From Promethearchaeota archaeon (lineage in GTDB: Archaea; Asgardarchaeota; Lokiarchaeia; Sigyniarchaeales; SOKP01): a stretch of 64,000 bases of DNA. The notes under the pieces were generated by a model. That model was not told where the DNA came from. It did no database searches and saw nothing but the letters and a program-made list of their open reading frames with translations. Where the stretch lies: contig JAUWGH010000005.1 of NCBI GenBank assembly GCA_030606485.1, positions 260,129 through 324,128 on the forward strand, written 5' to 3'. Positions 45,697-53,098 of the stretch are shown piece by piece (positions within the stretch are counted from its first letter, which is position 1; every line of letters begins with the position of its first letter). The position numbers and the translations under genes were made by a program.

Positions 45697-46263
45697 ATGG
45701 ATAAGGAGAAAAGAAGTAAAATTATATGGGGAATAACAGGTTCTGGCTATTTAATTAAAGAATCAATTGATTTAATGAAGGAACTACAAAAAAAATATTC
45801 AATCGATTTTACGGTAATACTCTCGACTCAAGGAGTAGTGGTTGCAAAGTGGTATCGCCAATGGTTATATTTAAAAGAAACCATTCAAAAAGTTCAAGTT
45901 GAGAAAACTCCAAATAATCCATTTCTTGCGGGACCTCTACAGACCGGTGAATATAAAATGTTAATTGTGTGCCCTTTAAGTGCTAATTCAGCAGCAAAGA
46001 TTGCTTATGGTATAGCTGACACGCTTATAACGAATTGCGTTGCACAAACAATTAAAGGTGGTGTTCCAGTTTATTTAAATCCTTCTGACCAAGAAGATAA
46101 ACCAATTGAGACTTATAGACCAAGTGGAGAAAAACTTATATTAAAGATTCGAGAAGTCGAGTTAGAAAACATTGAAAGATTAAAAAAGATGGATGGAATT
46201 ACACTTTTTTCTGATTTGAATGAAATAAAAAGAATAATTCTTGCACAAATAGAAAGTGATTAA
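45697..46263 (+). CDS. Flavoprotein of the dihydromethanopterin-reductase/archaeoflavoprotein group
   Basis: 188 aa single-domain FMN-binding flavoprotein fold. WGITGSGYLIKESIDLM forms the first strand/loop/helix. Later elements are LSTQGVVVAKWY, then LIVCPLSANSAAKIAYGIADTLITN, the conserved flavin-contact segment of this group, and VPVYLNPSD. Relatives include AfpA-type archaeoflavoproteins and the dihydromethanopterin reductase DmrX/DmrB. Between DUF1464 and a dihydropteroate-synthase-like gene the second option, reduction of a dihydropterin to the tetrahydro form, is attractive (inference). The next gene's GTG start overlaps its end by 8 nt. Confidence 0.8.
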   Translation: MDKEKRSKIIWGITGSGYLIKESIDLMKELQKKYSIDFTVILSTQGVVVAKWYRQWLYLKETIQKVQVEKTPNNPFLAGPLQTGEYKMLIVCPLSANSAAKIAYGIADTLITNCVAQTIKGGVPVYLNPSDQEDKPIETYRPSGEKLILKIREVELENIERLKKMDGITLFSDLNEIKRIILAQIESD

Positions 46264-47836
46264 TATAAACATTTTAATAATTACTGGAATACAAAGTCTT
46301 CAAACTGCACAAAGAATTGCAAATGAAACAAAGAATCATTTTATAGATGTTCTTAAAGCTCCTATCTCCGTATCTGCATTTTTAACCGAAGATTTAACAA
46401 ACCAACTTCTTTTAGAAGAAAAATTAAATCAATATGATATTGTTCTTTTACCAGGTTTTATTCAATGGGATGCAAGTAATTTAGAAAAAAAATTTTCAAT
46501 TCCTATTCGTAAAGGTCCGAGATTTTTATCAGATTTACACTCAATCTTAAAAAAAGTAGAAGATTTAAATCTATCTAATACAATTCCTGCTTGTGATTTG
46601 TTAAAATTTTCAGGTGAAGATCAATATGAAGAAATAGTAAAAAATAGAATAGAATTTGCTCGAAAATCGATCTCTACTCATACTTTTATCATTAATGATA
46701 AATTTCCTGATAAAATTATCGGAAGAGACTTACCTCCTTTAATTATTGCCGAGATTATAAATGCACCACAAAAGAATTTTAAGCAATTAGATAGAAAAAT
46801 AGAGCATTATATTTCTTCAGGAGCTGATGTGATTGATCTCGGGTGCACATCGAATAAACCGAATCCTTCAAGACTTCAAGAAATTATTGAGTACATTAAA
46901 AGCAAATACAATATTCTATTAAGTGCAGATACTCTAAATTCAGAAGAAATTAACGCTGCTATTGATGTAGATATCGACTTAATATTGAGTTTAGATTATG
47001 GAAATTATGAGAATCACTTAGATGCACCTAAAAAGCTGCCTTTTGTAATTCTTCCAACTGATACAACAAAGGCAATAATGCCAAAGATACCAGAAGTTAG
47101 AATTGAACGTTTATTTGCTTTAACAGAAATTTTAAAGAAGAAAGGATTTCAAAAACTCATTTTGGATCCTCTTTTAGAAACACCAATTAATCCGGGATTT
47201 ATAAACTCTATTAGTGCATATTCGTTATATAATAAGAAAGTTAAAGAAGAGAAATATAAAGAATTAGAATTTCCCTTATTTTTTGGAATTTCTAATGTTG
47301 TTGAGTTAATGGATATAGATTCTATAGGAATTAACGGGCTTTTAGCATGTATTGCCGCAGAGCTTGATATTGGTGTAATTTTTACGGTTGAACATAGTGC
47401 AAAATTATTTAACGGAGTTAATGAATTGAAGAAGGGAATTAAATTAGCATATTTATCTAAATATAAAAAAATGCCTCCTATTAATCAAGGAATACAAATT
47501 TTTAGTGCAAAAAGTAAAAATAAAGTTGAGTTGCCACAAATAAATAGAAATCAAGCAGTAATATTAAAAGATTCAGATGATTACTATCAACCTGATTCGA
47601 ATGGTTATTTTAAAATTTATACAAACCAATATACAAATGAAATATACGTGCTTCATATTTCAAATGGTCATAATCTTTTAAATACAATAGTTGGCAAGAA
47701 TGCTGAAGATATAAGTAAAAAAATCATAAAGTTAAATCTCACTGCTGATAAATTTCATATTAATTATTTAGGGCGAGAGTTGAAGAAAGCAGAAATTTGC
47801 TTAAAATCAGGTAAATATTATATCCAAGATGAGTAA
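46256..47836 (+). CDS. Dihydropteroate-synthase-related protein (methanopterin pathway)
   Basis: Three-part protein: an N-terminal domain of about 150 residues (DUF6513 type, starting ILIITGIQSLQTAQRI), a pterin-binding TIM barrel (about 155-400) and a C-terminal domain of about 110 residues (DUF4346 type, HISNGHNLLNTIVGKNAEDI). In the barrel, GADVIDLGCTS and LSADTLNSEEINAA match dihydropteroate-synthase loops for the pterin ring. Methanogens have the same composite protein for joining the pterin to the arylamine in methanopterin synthesis. GTG start, overlapping the flavoprotein gene by 8 nt. It ends the rightward trio and converges with cofH. Confidence 0.85.
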   Translation: MININILIITGIQSLQTAQRIANETKNHFIDVLKAPISVSAFLTEDLTNQLLLEEKLNQYDIVLLPGFIQWDASNLEKKFSIPIRKGPRFLSDLHSILKKVEDLNLSNTIPACDLLKFSGEDQYEEIVKNRIEFARKSISTHTFIINDKFPDKIIGRDLPPLIIAEIINAPQKNFKQLDRKIEHYISSGADVIDLGCTSNKPNPSRLQEIIEYIKSKYNILLSADTLNSEEINAAIDVDIDLILSLDYGNYENHLDAPKKLPFVILPTDTTKAIMPKIPEVRIERLFALTEILKKKGFQKLILDPLLETPINPGFINSISAYSLYNKKVKEEKYKELEFPLFFGISNVVELMDIDSIGINGLLACIAAELDIGVIFTVEHSAKLFNGVNELKKGIKLAYLSKYKKMPPINQGIQIFSAKSKNKVELPQINRNQAVILKDSDDYYQPDSNGYFKIYTNQYTNEIYVLHISNGHNLLNTIVGKNAEDISKKIIKLNLTADKFHINYLGRELKKAEICLKSGKYYIQDE

Positions 47837-48018: not shown

Positions 48019-49143
48019 TCAATAATATTTTATTATATTATAAACAGTATCTCTTTGAGCTGGACGTTTTCCAGCGGATTTAATTATATTGATGATTTCC
48101 TCAGGTTTTAAATATTCACCATAATGGGCTCCTGCGCTTCTAGAAATATTTTCTTCCAATAACGTTCCAGAAAAATCATTTACACCATAATTTAATGAAA
48201 TTTGAGCAAATCTTGGCCCCAGTTTAACCCAAGAACATTGAATATTATCAATATTATTATTTAAAAATATTCTTGCAACACAAAACAACTTTAAATCGTC
48301 CATACCATAAGTTGGTTTTAACGGATATTGCCTAATTTTTGAAAGCATTGGATTTTCTTTAACATATGGCAAAAGAACAAATTCTGTTATTCCACTAGTC
48401 TCTTTTTGAATGTTTCTTATTATTTCTAAATGTATCATTCTATCTTCTAAGCTTTCTATATGACCATACATTATTGTAGATGTTGTTGGAATTTCTAATT
48501 TATGTGCGGTAGAAATAATTTCAATCCATTGCTCTGTGGTTATTTTTTTAGGGCATATAATTTTTCTTATTTCATCATTTAATATTTCTGCTGCAGTCCC
48601 TGGTATTGAGTCCAAACCAGCTTTTTTTAATTCTTTCAGCGTATCTTCGAGAGTTAAACCATTTAATTGTGTCATATAAAAAATTTCTTGTGGTGAAAAA
48701 GCATGTGCATGAATCTCAGGGGCGGTACTTTTTACCACTTTTAAAATATCTAAATAAAATTGAAAGTCAACTTTTGGATTTAACCCTCCTTGAATGCATA
48801 CTTCTGTACAATTTTTATCTTTTGCTTCAAGAATTTTTTCTTTAATTTCTTCAAGTGATAATAGATAAGCTTCTTTATGATTTTTTGATACATTAAATGA
48901 ACAGAATTTACAGCTACTAGTACATATATTTGTGAAATTAATGTTCCGGTTAATTACGAAAGTTACAATATTTTCTTTTTTCAGAGAACATAGATAATTT
49001 GCAACTAATTGTAGCGCTAAAAAATCATTTCCGGAACATTTTAATAACTCTAGTCCTTCAATCTTGGTTATTTCCTTGGAATTTAATGCTTTATCGAGAA
49101 TCCTTTCAATTTTTGAATTAGATAATTGGTTTAACTCTACCAT
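48019..49143 (-). CDS. cofH: F0 synthase subunit CofH
   Basis: Radical SAM enzyme that couples a tyrosine-derived radical to 5-amino-6-ribitylaminouracil, the first half of F0 formation in coenzyme F420 synthesis. SAM cluster cysteines are in CTSSCKFCSF near residue 72. CofH family signatures follow: EVCIQGGLNPKVDFQFY near 116, HAHAFSPQEI near 142, and GLDSIPGTAAEIL near 170. The GTAAEI and QGGL-N-P motifs separate it from MqnC and CofG. 374 aa is normal. It lies 14 nt after cofG and is last in the four-gene operon. Confidence 0.95.
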   Translation of the reverse strand: MVELNQLSNSKIERILDKALNSKEITKIEGLELLKCSGNDFLALQLVANYLCSLKKENIVTFVINRNINFTNICTSSCKFCSFNVSKNHKEAYLLSLEEIKEKILEAKDKNCTEVCIQGGLNPKVDFQFYLDILKVVKSTAPEIHAHAFSPQEIFYMTQLNGLTLEDTLKELKKAGLDSIPGTAAEILNDEIRKIICPKKITTEQWIEIISTAHKLEIPTTSTIMYGHIESLEDRMIHLEIIRNIQKETSGITEFVLLPYVKENPMLSKIRQYPLKPTYGMDDLKLFCVARIFLNNNIDNIQCSWVKLGPRFAQISLNYGVNDFSGTLLEENISRSAGAHYGEYLKPEEIINIIKSAGKRPAQRDTVYNIIKYY

Positions 49144-49157
49144 GATTGAATTGATAA

Positions 49158-50264
49158 TTATGAGATATTATTACAATAAAACTCCATCACATTATTAATT
49201 TGTGAGGACATGAAATTTTTTTTTCTAATAAATTTATCATAGATTGGTAGTCTCTCTTTCAACTCGAACCCTTCAGCTTTACAAATCTTTTTTAAATGTT
49301 CAATTTCTGGCCATGTTTTATAAGGATTTATTTCGTCTCTTGTAAATGGAGAAATACCTCCAAAATCATCTATTCCAACTTTTAAAAATTGTTTTTCATA
49401 ACCAGTAATTAAGTTTGGTGGAATCTGAATTTTTATCGAATTCTCTACTATGATTTTGGCAATTCCAGCTGTCTTGATAATATTTCCTATTGCAATTGGT
49501 GTTTTAGGATTATATCTTATATTCGGTTTTGAGATAAAATTTTGTATTATTATTTCTTGGATGTGTTCATATTCATCATTCAATTCCTTTATAAGAAATA
49601 AATCCTTTATCCGATCAATCATACTTTCCCCTATACCTAAAAGTAAACCAGTTGTAAAAGGTATTCTTAATTTCCCGGCATTTTTAATAAATTCAATCCT
49701 TTTATCTGGTCTTTTACCGGGACTTTCTTCATGAACATTACCTTTTTTAAATAACCTAGGTTGGGAACTTTCAAGCATAAGGCCCATACTCGCGTTATAA
49801 TCTTTTATTTGTTCTAATTTATCATAACTAAGATATCCTACATTCGTGTGGGGTAAAAATTCTTTAGATAATAATAATTTGCAAATATATAACAGATAAT
49901 CGAAAAATTGTTTAAATCCTCTGGATTTTAATCTTTTTTTAACTATTTGGAATTGATCTGGATGTTCTCCAGACATTATTAAAGCTTCCTTACAATTAAG
50001 TTGATGTGCTTTGGCCATTAACTTTTTAATTTTTTTTAAATCAAACAGTGTAATAATTTCATTTTGAGTTTTCATTCTATGATTGAAGTAGCAATAAGAG
50101 CAATTATTTATGCAATAATTTGATAATGGGATGGTGAAATTTTTTGAAAATGTTATAATATCTCTTTCATCATGTGGCAACTCATTTTTAATTTCTCTTA
50201 CTTTTTTTCTTATTTCTCTTAGAGATAATTTTGCTAATCCATTTATTGCCTCTATAAAATTCAC
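49158..50264 (-). CDS. cofG: F0 synthase subunit CofG
   Basis: Radical SAM 7,8-didemethyl-8-hydroxy-5-deazariboflavin synthase, which closes the deazaflavin ring on the CofH product. SAM cluster in CINNCSYCYF near residue 53. Further CofG markers are ALIMSGEHP near 97, PHTNVGYLSYDKL near 137, GLMLESSQPRL near 160 and GLLLGIGES near 206, with the late KVGIDDFGGISPFTRDEINP. The match is full length (368 aa). Start ATG 50264, two nt after the arfC stop. Confidence 0.95.
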   Translation of the reverse strand: MNFIEAINGLAKLSLREIRKKVREIKNELPHDERDIITFSKNFTIPLSNYCINNCSYCYFNHRMKTQNEIITLFDLKKIKKLMAKAHQLNCKEALIMSGEHPDQFQIVKKRLKSRGFKQFFDYLLYICKLLLSKEFLPHTNVGYLSYDKLEQIKDYNASMGLMLESSQPRLFKKGNVHEESPGKRPDKRIEFIKNAGKLRIPFTTGLLLGIGESMIDRIKDLFLIKELNDEYEHIQEIIIQNFISKPNIRYNPKTPIAIGNIIKTAGIAKIIVENSIKIQIPPNLITGYEKQFLKVGIDDFGGISPFTRDEINPYKTWPEIEHLKKICKAEGFELKERLPIYDKFIRKKNFMSSQINNVMEFYCNNIS

Positions 50265-50266
50265 AC

Positions 50267-50926
50267 CTACGCTTTTAAATAATGAAGTACTACATAATTA
50301 TCTCTTTTCAAAACGTTTTGCAGGTTGAATTTAAAACCTTCAACTATTCGCTTTACTCCTAGACCATCAACGAGTGAAACAGCGTTTTTCCCTCCAACTA
50401 TTATAGGAGCAATGAAAATTCTAATCTCGTCAACTAAACAATTTTTTATCATACTCCAATTGAGAGATCCTCCTCCTTCGAGTAAAATTTTTTTAATCCC
50501 ATGCTTGTATAATTCTTCCATTAATTTTTTTAAATTAACCTGTTTTCCAGAACCTGTGTTGATAAATCTAATATTTCTCAGTTTAGCCTTTTCCATTTTT
50601 GGTTTTAGAGCATGATCTGTTATTGCGATTATTGTGGGATAAGTCTCTAGTTTATAACTTAATACTTTTGAAGTTAAAGGAATAGAAAAGGAACTATCAA
50701 CAATAACCCGAATTAATTTTGTTGGTTCGTAAAATTTTATGTGTAATTTTGGATCATCTTTTAAGATCGTATTTTTTCCAACCATTATTGCATCATATTC
50801 GGTCCTAAGTTTATGAACTAGTTTCCAATCCTCTCCATCAGAAAATTCAGTATCACCAGTATATGTGGCAATTTTTCCATCAATACTCATAGCACAACTC
50901 AATAAAACATATGGTTTATTTTTCAA
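50267..50926 (-). CDS. arfC: Diaminohydroxyphosphoribosylaminopyrimidine reductase (ArfC/RIB7 type)
   Basis: Reduces the ribose of 2,5-diamino-6-(ribosylamino)-pyrimidinone phosphate to ribityl, the reduction-first route to riboflavin and F420 in archaea and fungi. RibD C-terminal fold: LSCAMSIDGKIAT near residue 10, AIMVGKNTILKDDP near 46 (NADPH/ substrate loop), LIRVIVDSS near 71 and ILLEGGGSLNWSM near 145. There is no N-terminal deaminase domain, as expected. It sits between an amidohydrolase (11-nt overlap) and cofG (2-nt gap), directly linking precursor supply to F0 synthesis. Confidence 0.93.
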   Translation of the reverse strand: MKNKPYVLLSCAMSIDGKIATYTGDTEFSDGEDWKLVHKLRTEYDAIMVGKNTILKDDPKLHIKFYEPTKLIRVIVDSSFSIPLTSKVLSYKLETYPTIIAITDHALKPKMEKAKLRNIRFINTGSGKQVNLKKLMEELYKHGIKKILLEGGGSLNWSMIKNCLVDEIRIFIAPIIVGGKNAVSLVDGLGVKRIVEGFKFNLQNVLKRDNYVVLHYLKA

Positions 50927-52064
50927 AAACTACTCTCCCTTTAATATATACTTTCTTAATATTAAAACTAGTCGTTCTATGAACAGTTAAATCTAATAAA
51001 TTTTTATGGTTTATTGTAAAGAAGTTTGAATCCTTAAGATTTATTAAAAAAAAATCAGCAAATTTTCCTACTGAAATTGATCCTATCTCTTTATCTAATC
51101 TAAAATTTTTTGCAGCGTTAATAGTTACCATTTTTAGTAAATCTCTCGATTTTAAGACGTAATTAGGATTCCTTATTTTTGAAACCTTATATAAATATCT
51201 CATTTCTTCAAATAAGTCTGGTCTAATTGCCATTATATTATCAGTACCAATAGAAATTTCTAATTTCATATCTAACATTTCTTTTAATGGAGGTATTCCC
51301 ATCCCAAAATAACCATTACTTTGAGGGCAAATAACAATTTTTTTATTATGTTTTTTTATTTTTAATAAGTCTTGTTTATTAAAATGTGTCCCATGAATGA
51401 ATACATCAATAAAATCTTCAGATAAAATGTTTTCGAGTATAATATTCTCCCTTTTAACCTCAGATATATGAGTTGCAATAATTTTATTAGTATGTGGTTT
51501 TTTATTTAAAATATTTTTAATGGTATCTCCATCAATTTTTGAACTTGATGGAAAACCAATACCATCTGCGATGTTATAAATATCAAATACATCATCATTT
51601 TCATGCTGTCGACCTAATATCTTGAATTTAATTGGGGAATCTTTTAATGCCTTTTTTAATAATTTAATGCCTTTAATTCCAAATTCTCGAAAATCGATAA
51701 AAAATGTTATTCCATTAGATAACATTTCATTAACTGCTTCTCTAATACCTTTAATTATAAAATTTTCATCAGTATCTCTTAATAATTTGTATTTTAGACT
51801 ATTAGGACCACTTACAACATCTTTAATTGGTTTATTTAAACCAAATTCTTTCCCAATACTGTCTGCAATATGAATATGACTGTTTATAAAGCCAGGAAGT
51901 AAAATTGTCTTACCTTTTCCTAAAGGATTTTTATTATTGATTTTCTCTGATTCATTAATTCCTTTAATTATGCCATTTTTTGATATTTCGATAATAACAT
52001 TCTTTTTTAAATCTAAATCTTCACCAACTAAACAAAAATCAGAAAATATCTTTTTACTTACCAT
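50916..52064 (-). CDS. Amidohydrolase-superfamily deaminase in the F420 operon
   Basis: Metal-dependent hydrolase of the cytosine/guanine/atrazine deaminase branch. Metal ligands are complete: HIH in NSHIHIAD near residue 64, a His in ATHISEVKRE near 196, HGTHF near 222, and Asp in SIGTDN near 278. A small beta-sandwich is made by both ends. The deaminase-type T-H-x-x-E pattern suggests attack on an amino-pyrimidine or purine. First gene of the operon with arfC, cofG and cofH, overlapping arfC by 11 nt. Two roles fit: deamination of the ArfC product, a step with no assigned archaeal enzyme that I know of, or of 5'-deoxyadenosine released by CofG/CofH (as DadD does). Confidence 0.85.
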   Translation of the reverse strand: MVSKKIFSDFCLVGEDLDLKKNVIIEISKNGIIKGINESEKINNKNPLGKGKTILLPGFINSHIHIADSIGKEFGLNKPIKDVVSGPNSLKYKLLRDTDENFIIKGIREAVNEMLSNGITFFIDFREFGIKGIKLLKKALKDSPIKFKILGRQHENDDVFDIYNIADGIGFPSSSKIDGDTIKNILNKKPHTNKIIATHISEVKRENIILENILSEDFIDVFIHGTHFNKQDLLKIKKHNKKIVICPQSNGYFGMGIPPLKEMLDMKLEISIGTDNIMAIRPDLFEEMRYLYKVSKIRNPNYVLKSRDLLKMVTINAAKNFRLDKEIGSISVGKFADFFLINLKDSNFFTINHKNLLDLTVHRTTSFNIKKVYIKGRVVFEK

Positions 52065-52123: not shown

Positions 52124-53098
52124 GTGATAATTATTTCTAATGAATTTCGAAAAGATTTACAAGATTCCTATTCTCCTTTAGACGTAGCTATTGATAAAGT
52201 TGGTATAATTGGACTCAGAAAAAAAATAGATATAGTAAAAGGCAATTACAAATACTCATTCTACCCAAAGATATCAGCTTTAATTAGTCTCCCGGCAAAA
52301 CAGAGAGGTATTCATATGAGTAGAACTTCTGAAACAATTGAAGAAGTAATTAATGAAGTTATTTTTAAGCCCACTCCAACTATAGAAGTAGTCGCTGATC
52401 GGATTATAAAAAAATTATTAAAAAAGCATAAATACACTTTAAAAGTTCATGTGGAGCTTGAGGGCGATATTGTTATTCAAGTAAGAGAGACTGAGAAAAA
52501 TAATGTCCAAAAATCTTATTATATAAAAACTGTAGCTAATGGAATAAAACAAGATAATGGAGAAGTTAGGTATAAATATTTCATTGGAGTTAGCGCGGTT
52601 GGTCTTAATGTATGTCCCTGTAGTATGGAGATGAGTAGAGAATTTGTAGAAGATTTTATTAAAGCAAGAAGAGATATTAAGATTTCAGAAATTGATTTAA
52701 AAAAGTTACTGAACATTCTTCCTGTTTCATCACACAATCAAAGAGCGAAAGGAACAATTACGGTTGAGATTGATGATGTAGATATAAACTCTATAGATAT
52801 AATTGATTTGATAAATATAATTGAAAACTCTATGAGTGGTAAGATAAGTTCTGTCTTAAAACGACCTGAAGAAGCGGAATTGGTTCGAGTCGCTCATCTT
52901 AAACCTTTGTTTGCAGAAGATGCCGTAAGAGAAATGGCTAAAAATTTTATTAAAAAAGATTTTATAAATTTAAAGGATAAGTTTAGTGTAAAATTTGAAA
53001 TTACTAGTTTTGAAAGCATTCACTCCTATGATGTTTTTGCTGAACTGAATACAACAATAGGAGAATTAAAAAAAATCATTAAAGATATAAAAAATTAG
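52124..53098 (+). CDS. mptA: GTP cyclohydrolase MptA (GTP cyclohydrolase I type B/FolE2 family)
   Basis: First enzyme of methanopterin-type pterin synthesis, converting GTP to 7,8-dihydroneopterin 2',3'-cyclic phosphate with Fe(II). Family markers include ISALISLPAKQRGIHMSR near residues 50-67, which carries the H-M-S-R catalytic stretch, GLNVCPC near 163-169 and the late SHNQRAKGTI near 205. 324 aa is normal. GTG start with no closer in-frame alternative. It is divergent from the amidohydrolase gene (59-nt gap), so one control region may serve both pterin and deazaflavin branches. Confidence 0.94.
   Translation: MIIISNEFRKDLQDSYSPLDVAIDKVGIIGLRKKIDIVKGNYKYSFYPKISALISLPAKQRGIHMSRTSETIEEVINEVIFKPTPTIEVVADRIIKKLLKKHKYTLKVHVELEGDIVIQVRETEKNNVQKSYYIKTVANGIKQDNGEVRYKYFIGVSAVGLNVCPCSMEMSREFVEDFIKARRDIKISEIDLKKLLNILPVSSHNQRAKGTITVEIDDVDINSIDIIDLINIIENSMSGKISSVLKRPEEAELVRVAHLKPLFAEDAVREMAKNFIKKDFINLKDKFSVKFEITSFESIHSYDVFAELNTTIGELKKIIKDIKN

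Follow-up and report, generated by a model that had tools for sequence, protein, structure and literature searches.

The product of the archaeal reductase ArfC contains a 2-amino-4-oxo-pyrimidine ring, as do guanine and isocytosine, and a reductase-first order of steps has been established for MJ0671. In archaeal vitamin B2 and F420 synthesis, deamination between ArfC and lumazine synthase or CofH is among the last steps still to be proven; in a review, the archaeal order is given as reduction followed by deamination (PMC13028884). For halophiles, three gaps in the riboflavin pathway have been recorded (PMC8305020, Table 6). As listed in the same table, HVO_2483, which is 34% identical to MJ0699, was predicted by Rodionova et al. 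(2017) to act between arfC and the phosphatase gap. Given this listing, the statement in the first-pass annotation of the present locus that the archaeal deaminase is unassigned does not wholly hold. Within a limited literature search, no experimental proof of an archaeal enzyme for the deamination step was found. Here, gene order, family, metal ligands, distribution and phylogeny were computed for an Asgard amidohydrolase encoded beside arfC.

Organization of the amidohydrolase-arfC cluster

The window (the whole stretch of DNA analyzed, 64,000 nucleotides), which derives from an Asgard archaeon belonging to a Lokiarchaeota family, contains a leftward gene cluster on the minus strand. It begins with a gene for an amidohydrolase-superfamily protein of 382 amino acids (50916-52064), the putative 2,5-diamino-6-ribitylamino-4(3H)-pyrimidinone 5'-phosphate deaminase. 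This is followed by arfC (50267-50926), which has a TTG start and encodes a 2,5-diamino-6-ribosylamino-4(3H)-pyrimidinone 5'-phosphate reductase of 219 amino acids, by cofG (49158-50264), encoding FO synthase subunit 1, and by cofH (48019-49143), the product of which uses 5-amino-6-ribitylaminouracil. In family scans, ArfC scored 189.3 bits against TIGR01508 (cut-off 186.45), CofG 364 bits against TIGR03550 (cut-off 213) and CofH 453 bits against TIGR03551 (cut-off 374). The amidohydrolase-arfC-cofG-cofH order noted in the first-pass annotation is therefore borne out by both the open reading frames and the family scans. The overlap of 11 nt described there between the first two genes (50916-50926, minus strand) also agrees with the coordinates: the amidohydrolase stop codon occupies 50918-50916 and the arfC TTG codon 50926-50924, such that the overlap is real provided that arfC begins at its TTG. 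A putative Shine-Dalgarno-like sequence, AGGGAGAG (50933-50940, minus strand), precedes this codon within the amidohydrolase gene.

The divergent neighbor mptA, encoding a GTP cyclohydrolase (52124-53098, plus strand; 235 bits against TIGR00294, cut-off 220), is included for context only. Around the F420 genes, at 45697-47836 and 52124-53098, the window encodes an AfpA-like flavoprotein, a DHPS-like protein (TIGR00284) and MptA, a grouping that suggests that a pterin C1 carrier is made by genes of this region.

Amidohydrolase fold and metal ligands

In a Pfam scan, the 50916-52064 protein matched Amidohydro_1 with 156 bits and contained amidohydrolase domains only; PF00383, the CDA-fold zinc domain, was absent. 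The best NCBIfam model was PRK07213/NF005552, "chlorohydrolase," with 257 bits, under the cut-off of 294. This cut-off was passed by nine of 180 Asgard genomes (G051, G053, G054, G057 and G118-G122), and the window amidohydrolase grouped with cut-off-passing members in a phylogenetic tree. The PRK07213 cut-off misses the majority of members from Sulfolobales and from the Lokiarchaeal family, and chlorohydrolase is probably a misnomer.

The metal ligands are encoded on the minus strand by the codons for H63-x-H65 (51870-51878), H199-x-x-E202 (51459-51470; ligand and catalytic glutamate), H224 (51393-51395) and D275-N276-x-M278 (51231-51242), the last being the family form of a catalytic aspartate motif that is mostly D-G-x-A in DadD-type proteins. 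Alignments showed H63, H65, H199, H224, D275 and the catalytic E202 to be invariant in 18 Asgard sequences and in 43 of 43 subfamily members, in keeping with the earlier observation that all deaminase metal ligands are present. An AlphaFold model of the protein (pLDDT 88.5) had adenosine/SAH-type deaminases as its nearest structures in the PDB, with AtzA, guanine deaminase and isocytosine deaminase also among them. The fold alone therefore does not choose the substrate. Amidohydrolase type was judged from alignments, model and PDB matches. The metal-binding and catalytic residues of the HxH, HxxE, H and D pattern were all found, set in a TIM barrel that carries a beta sandwich, and the window protein is thus a cytosine/guanine-deaminase-like member of the amidohydrolase superfamily. 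The deaminase reading proposed earlier draws support from the fold common to this protein and the guanine and isocytosine deaminases.

Genetic linkage and co-occurrence with arfC

Lokiarchaeal-family loci share the order mptA <> amidohydrolase-arfC-cofG-cofH, and in more distant Asgard loci (L060-L062 and L064) the amidohydrolase-arfC pair alone is kept. The pair was likewise observed in Nitrososphaeria, Bathyarchaeota and one Aenigmatarchaeon (DPANN). Since it recurs in 54 of 98 loci (27 of the 54 without cofG or cofH within 8 kb), and the amidohydrolase lies within 2.5 kb of arfC in 86 of 124 Thermoproteota carriers, the pairing is beyond chance. In two genomes that we take to be Sulfolobales, the amidohydrolase closes a ribB-ribC-ribH-arfA operon that contains no radical-SAM gene, with arfC located elsewhere, and on an Altiarchaeales contig the amidohydrolase overlaps ribB. 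Together with the Asgard-type pairs, these arrangements identify the common partner as riboflavin synthesis up to 5-amino-6-ribitylaminouracil: the linkage of the amidohydrolase is with arfC and riboflavin synthesis rather than with radical-SAM genes. In the haloarchaeal and Methanobacteria loci examined, the gene stood apart from riboflavin genes. No ArfC-amidohydrolase fusion was seen in this analysis.

Nearly all carriers of the amidohydrolase also have ArfC, which was present in 124 of 124 carriers among 298 Thermoproteota genomes and in 88 of 89 carriers among 180 Asgard genomes, 85 of which had neither. A set of 20 additional amidohydrolase-bearing genomes, mostly from other archaea, included 18 with clear ArfC. 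Fisher tests of the association gave p values near 1e-44 (Thermoproteota) and 1e-42 (Asgard), which are not honest probabilities because the genomes are related. With a member line of 127 bits chosen by the analyst, the amidohydrolase was absent from about 47 of 171 ArfC-bearing Thermoproteota, an upper limit given that about eight of the 47 have a match of 370-430 amino acids at 100-122 bits and are possibly divergent members; six ArfC-bearing Asgard genomes were without it. The suggested co-occurrence is therefore close to complete when read from the amidohydrolase to arfC, but some arfC genomes lack the amidohydrolase.

Proposed function

We regard it as highly likely that the window amidohydrolase is the deaminase of 2,5-diamino-6-ribitylamino-4(3H)-pyrimidinone 5'-phosphate, with substrate, step order and metal use inferred. 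Such an enzyme, a cytosine/guanine-deaminase-type amidohydrolase with a mononuclear metal site, would take the ArfC product and hydrolyze its C2 amino group, yielding 5-amino-6-ribitylaminouracil 5'-phosphate and ammonia. A separate phosphatase would then release 5-amino-6-ribitylaminouracil, which would feed both CofH/CofG (FO/F420) and lumazine synthase (riboflavin). Of the claim that the gene is a candidate for a missing F420/riboflavin step, the part concerning deamination is strongly supported by neighborhood, ArfC co-occurrence, phylogeny and fold; dephosphorylation is not explained by the amidohydrolase. For the missing phosphatase step, a possible lead is an HD-domain phosphohydrolase (PF01966 and PF19276), the gene for which lies directly before the amidohydrolase across many haloarchaea and Marine Group IV (for example, at L109:6704-7930 and L113:6744-7973, and at most of the haloarchaeal loci that gave a match).

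Coupling to arfC leaves the order of steps unfixed, so the protein might instead be a pathway deaminase that acts on a neighboring intermediate, namely the dephosphorylated ribityl form or, following the order known from bacteria, the ribosyl form that precedes reduction. This is improbable, given that ArfC is a reductase of the archaeal/fungal type and acts first.

Separation from DadD-type deaminases

Deamination of the ArfC product was also weighed against salvage, in which a DadD-like deaminase of 5'-deoxyadenosine, SAH or MTA would clear the 5'-deoxyadenosine formed by CofG and CofH. The superfamily and fold are the same, DadD-type relatives are among the top PDB matches, and no DadD-type paralogue was found among the nameable amidohydrolases of the window's own genome (HutI and PyrC by scan, the rest by eye). 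A strict profile, built from Asgard sequences only, was used to tell family members from DadD and TRZ-ATZ types. Members scored at least 170 bits and were mostly 340-440 amino acids long, whereas DadD and TRZ-ATZ types scored at most 163 bits and were mostly 430-490 amino acids long, with two divergent Asgard rows as exceptions to this separation. In a tree calculated by a quick method, the member clade (44 rows) was split from the DadD and TRZ-ATZ types by a branch with an SH-aLRT value of 97. The clade comprised proteins from Asgard archaea, Nitrososphaeria, Bathyarchaeota, Aenigmatarchaeota, halophiles, methanogens, Altiarchaeales, Marine Group IV and Sulfolobales, and the opposite side of the branch held archaeal and bacterial DadD-type proteins. 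The window amidohydrolase falls within the clade, outside the DadD type, and scored only 86.5 bits on the 5'-deoxyadenosine deaminase model (cut-off 522).

Alignment revealed a set of residues that are conserved in the clade yet different in DadD-type proteins, namely D68, K91, R126, E127, R152, R248, N276, M278 and R363; the window amidohydrolase itself has Q at position 248. The differences at D68, R126, E127, R152, N276, M278 and R363 argue against a DadD-like function. The family-specific residues would fit a changed, perhaps anionic substrate, and the basic ones among them may suit a phosphorylated substrate. The family was over the cut-off in 93 of 97 Methanobacteria genomes, and, among the genomes listed, most additionally encode a distinct DadD-type protein of 430-470 amino acids. 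Finally, the 27 loci with the gene beside arfC and without cofG or cofH, as well as the Sulfolobales rib operons without a radical-SAM gene, speak against a role in the disposal of a radical-SAM by-product. Clade, scores, co-existing paralogues and linkage thus disfavor both 5'-deoxyadenosine salvage, the rival raised in the first-pass annotation, and orthology to DadD, and we consider this function decidedly unlikely.

Formamide hydrolysis, the ArfB step, would be open to an amidohydrolase that can cleave amides, and the gene adjoins arfA in Sulfolobales. This is very unlikely because the step belongs to the creatininase-family ArfB (PF02633 beside arfA in L253); moreover, the nearest families of the window protein are deaminases with HxH/HxxE/H/D ligands, and for halophiles a different candidate, HVO_1235, has been listed for arfB (PMC8305020). 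Salvage of pterins or of nucleobases in general, tied to the cluster by shared regulation only, as the mptA and DHPS-like neighbors in the window might suggest, is scarcely credible, given that mptA is not beside the pair in most non-Lokiarchaeal loci and that the distribution of the family tracks ArfC.

Genomes that carry arfC without the amidohydrolase

The amidohydrolase, our candidate for deamination of the ArfC product, is not the universal archaeal solution, because some arfC genomes lack it. Thermoproteales-like genomes, presumably Pyrobaculum and Thermoproteus, have arfC and no amidohydrolase. A Pyrobaculum-like genome contains an arfB-arfA-arfC-ribB cluster without a deaminase candidate (L253:4845-7549; similar in L257), and its CDA protein is a cytidine deaminase. 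The Asgard genomes G098-G101 (loci L170-L173) have kept arfC and lost the adjoining amidohydrolase, which is present in their relative G102. Because arfC occurs without the amidohydrolase in Thermoproteales and in certain Asgard genomes, another deaminase must exist.

Replacement by a CDA-fold enzyme was considered for the arfC-only genomes and rejected: G098-G101 have only one PF00383 protein, like their relatives, and in Thermoproteales and Sulfolobales the CDA protein is a cytidine deaminase. The G569 CDA protein is TadA-like in appearance. The only case that fits such a replacement is the Thermoproteota genome G498, where a RibA-RibD fusion of 589 amino acids (L306:5782-7548), comprising GTP cyclohydrolase II, deaminase and reductase, lies beside cofG and cofH and no member of the amidohydrolase family was found; here the bacterial enzyme has displaced the amidohydrolase. 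The presence of another, known deaminase in the window's own genome had been named as evidence that would count against the proposal. In a Pfam scan, the sole PF00383 match in that genome was a dCMP-deaminase/ComEB-like protein, and no RIB2-type CDA deaminase was found.

Discussion

The deaminase assignment is very probable, and its support now exceeds what one operon could give. Genomic support is much firmer from the arfC-coupled genes of Asgard archaea and Nitrososphaeria and from the rib operon of Sulfolobales than from the genes of haloarchaea and methanogens; the former also supply gene pairs that are easy to clone for a coupled assay. The clade is likely to be the main archaeal solution to the deamination step, in Asgard archaea, Nitrososphaeria, Sulfolobales, Bathyarchaeota, Altiarchaeota, methanogens and halophiles, and the non-homologous counterpart of RIB2/RibD, with lineages such as Thermoproteales using yet another deaminase. 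If so, this step would have arisen in archaea from guanine-deaminase-like amidohydrolases, an origin independent of RIB2/RibD and their CDA fold, and a new name would be needed for many "chlorohydrolase" proteins.

Among known systems, the prediction for HVO_2483/MJ0699 fills the same pathway gap, judging by the pathway order given in the table that lists it. This prediction probably concerns the family of the window amidohydrolase, given that each Haloferax genome yielded one strong clade member in a genus search and that the identities between a Haloferax clade member and Methanobacteria members (32.5-38%) agree with the 34% reported. The arfC- and rib-linked members in Asgard archaea, Nitrososphaeria and Sulfolobales constitute evidence independent of that prediction. 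PRK07213/NF005552 is the best model and matches over the full length, with several Asgard orthologues above its cut-off and the window protein below, but its name gives no real function. DadD-type proteins (PRK07228, PRK06038 and PRK08393) share superfamily, fold and ligands with the window amidohydrolase; however, they belong to another clade, are longer (430-480 amino acids), have other conserved residues and show no arfC linkage. The N-terminal deaminases of RIB2/RibD would perform the same reaction step with the unrelated CDA fold, PF00383, which the window protein does not contain. Guanine deaminase (GuaD) and the isocytosine and 8-oxoguanine deaminases have the same fold as the window protein and likewise act by hydrolysis of the 2-amino group of a 4-oxo pyrimidine, although the window protein, at 92.6 bits, is far under the cut-off of 375 for the guanine deaminase model TIGR02967.
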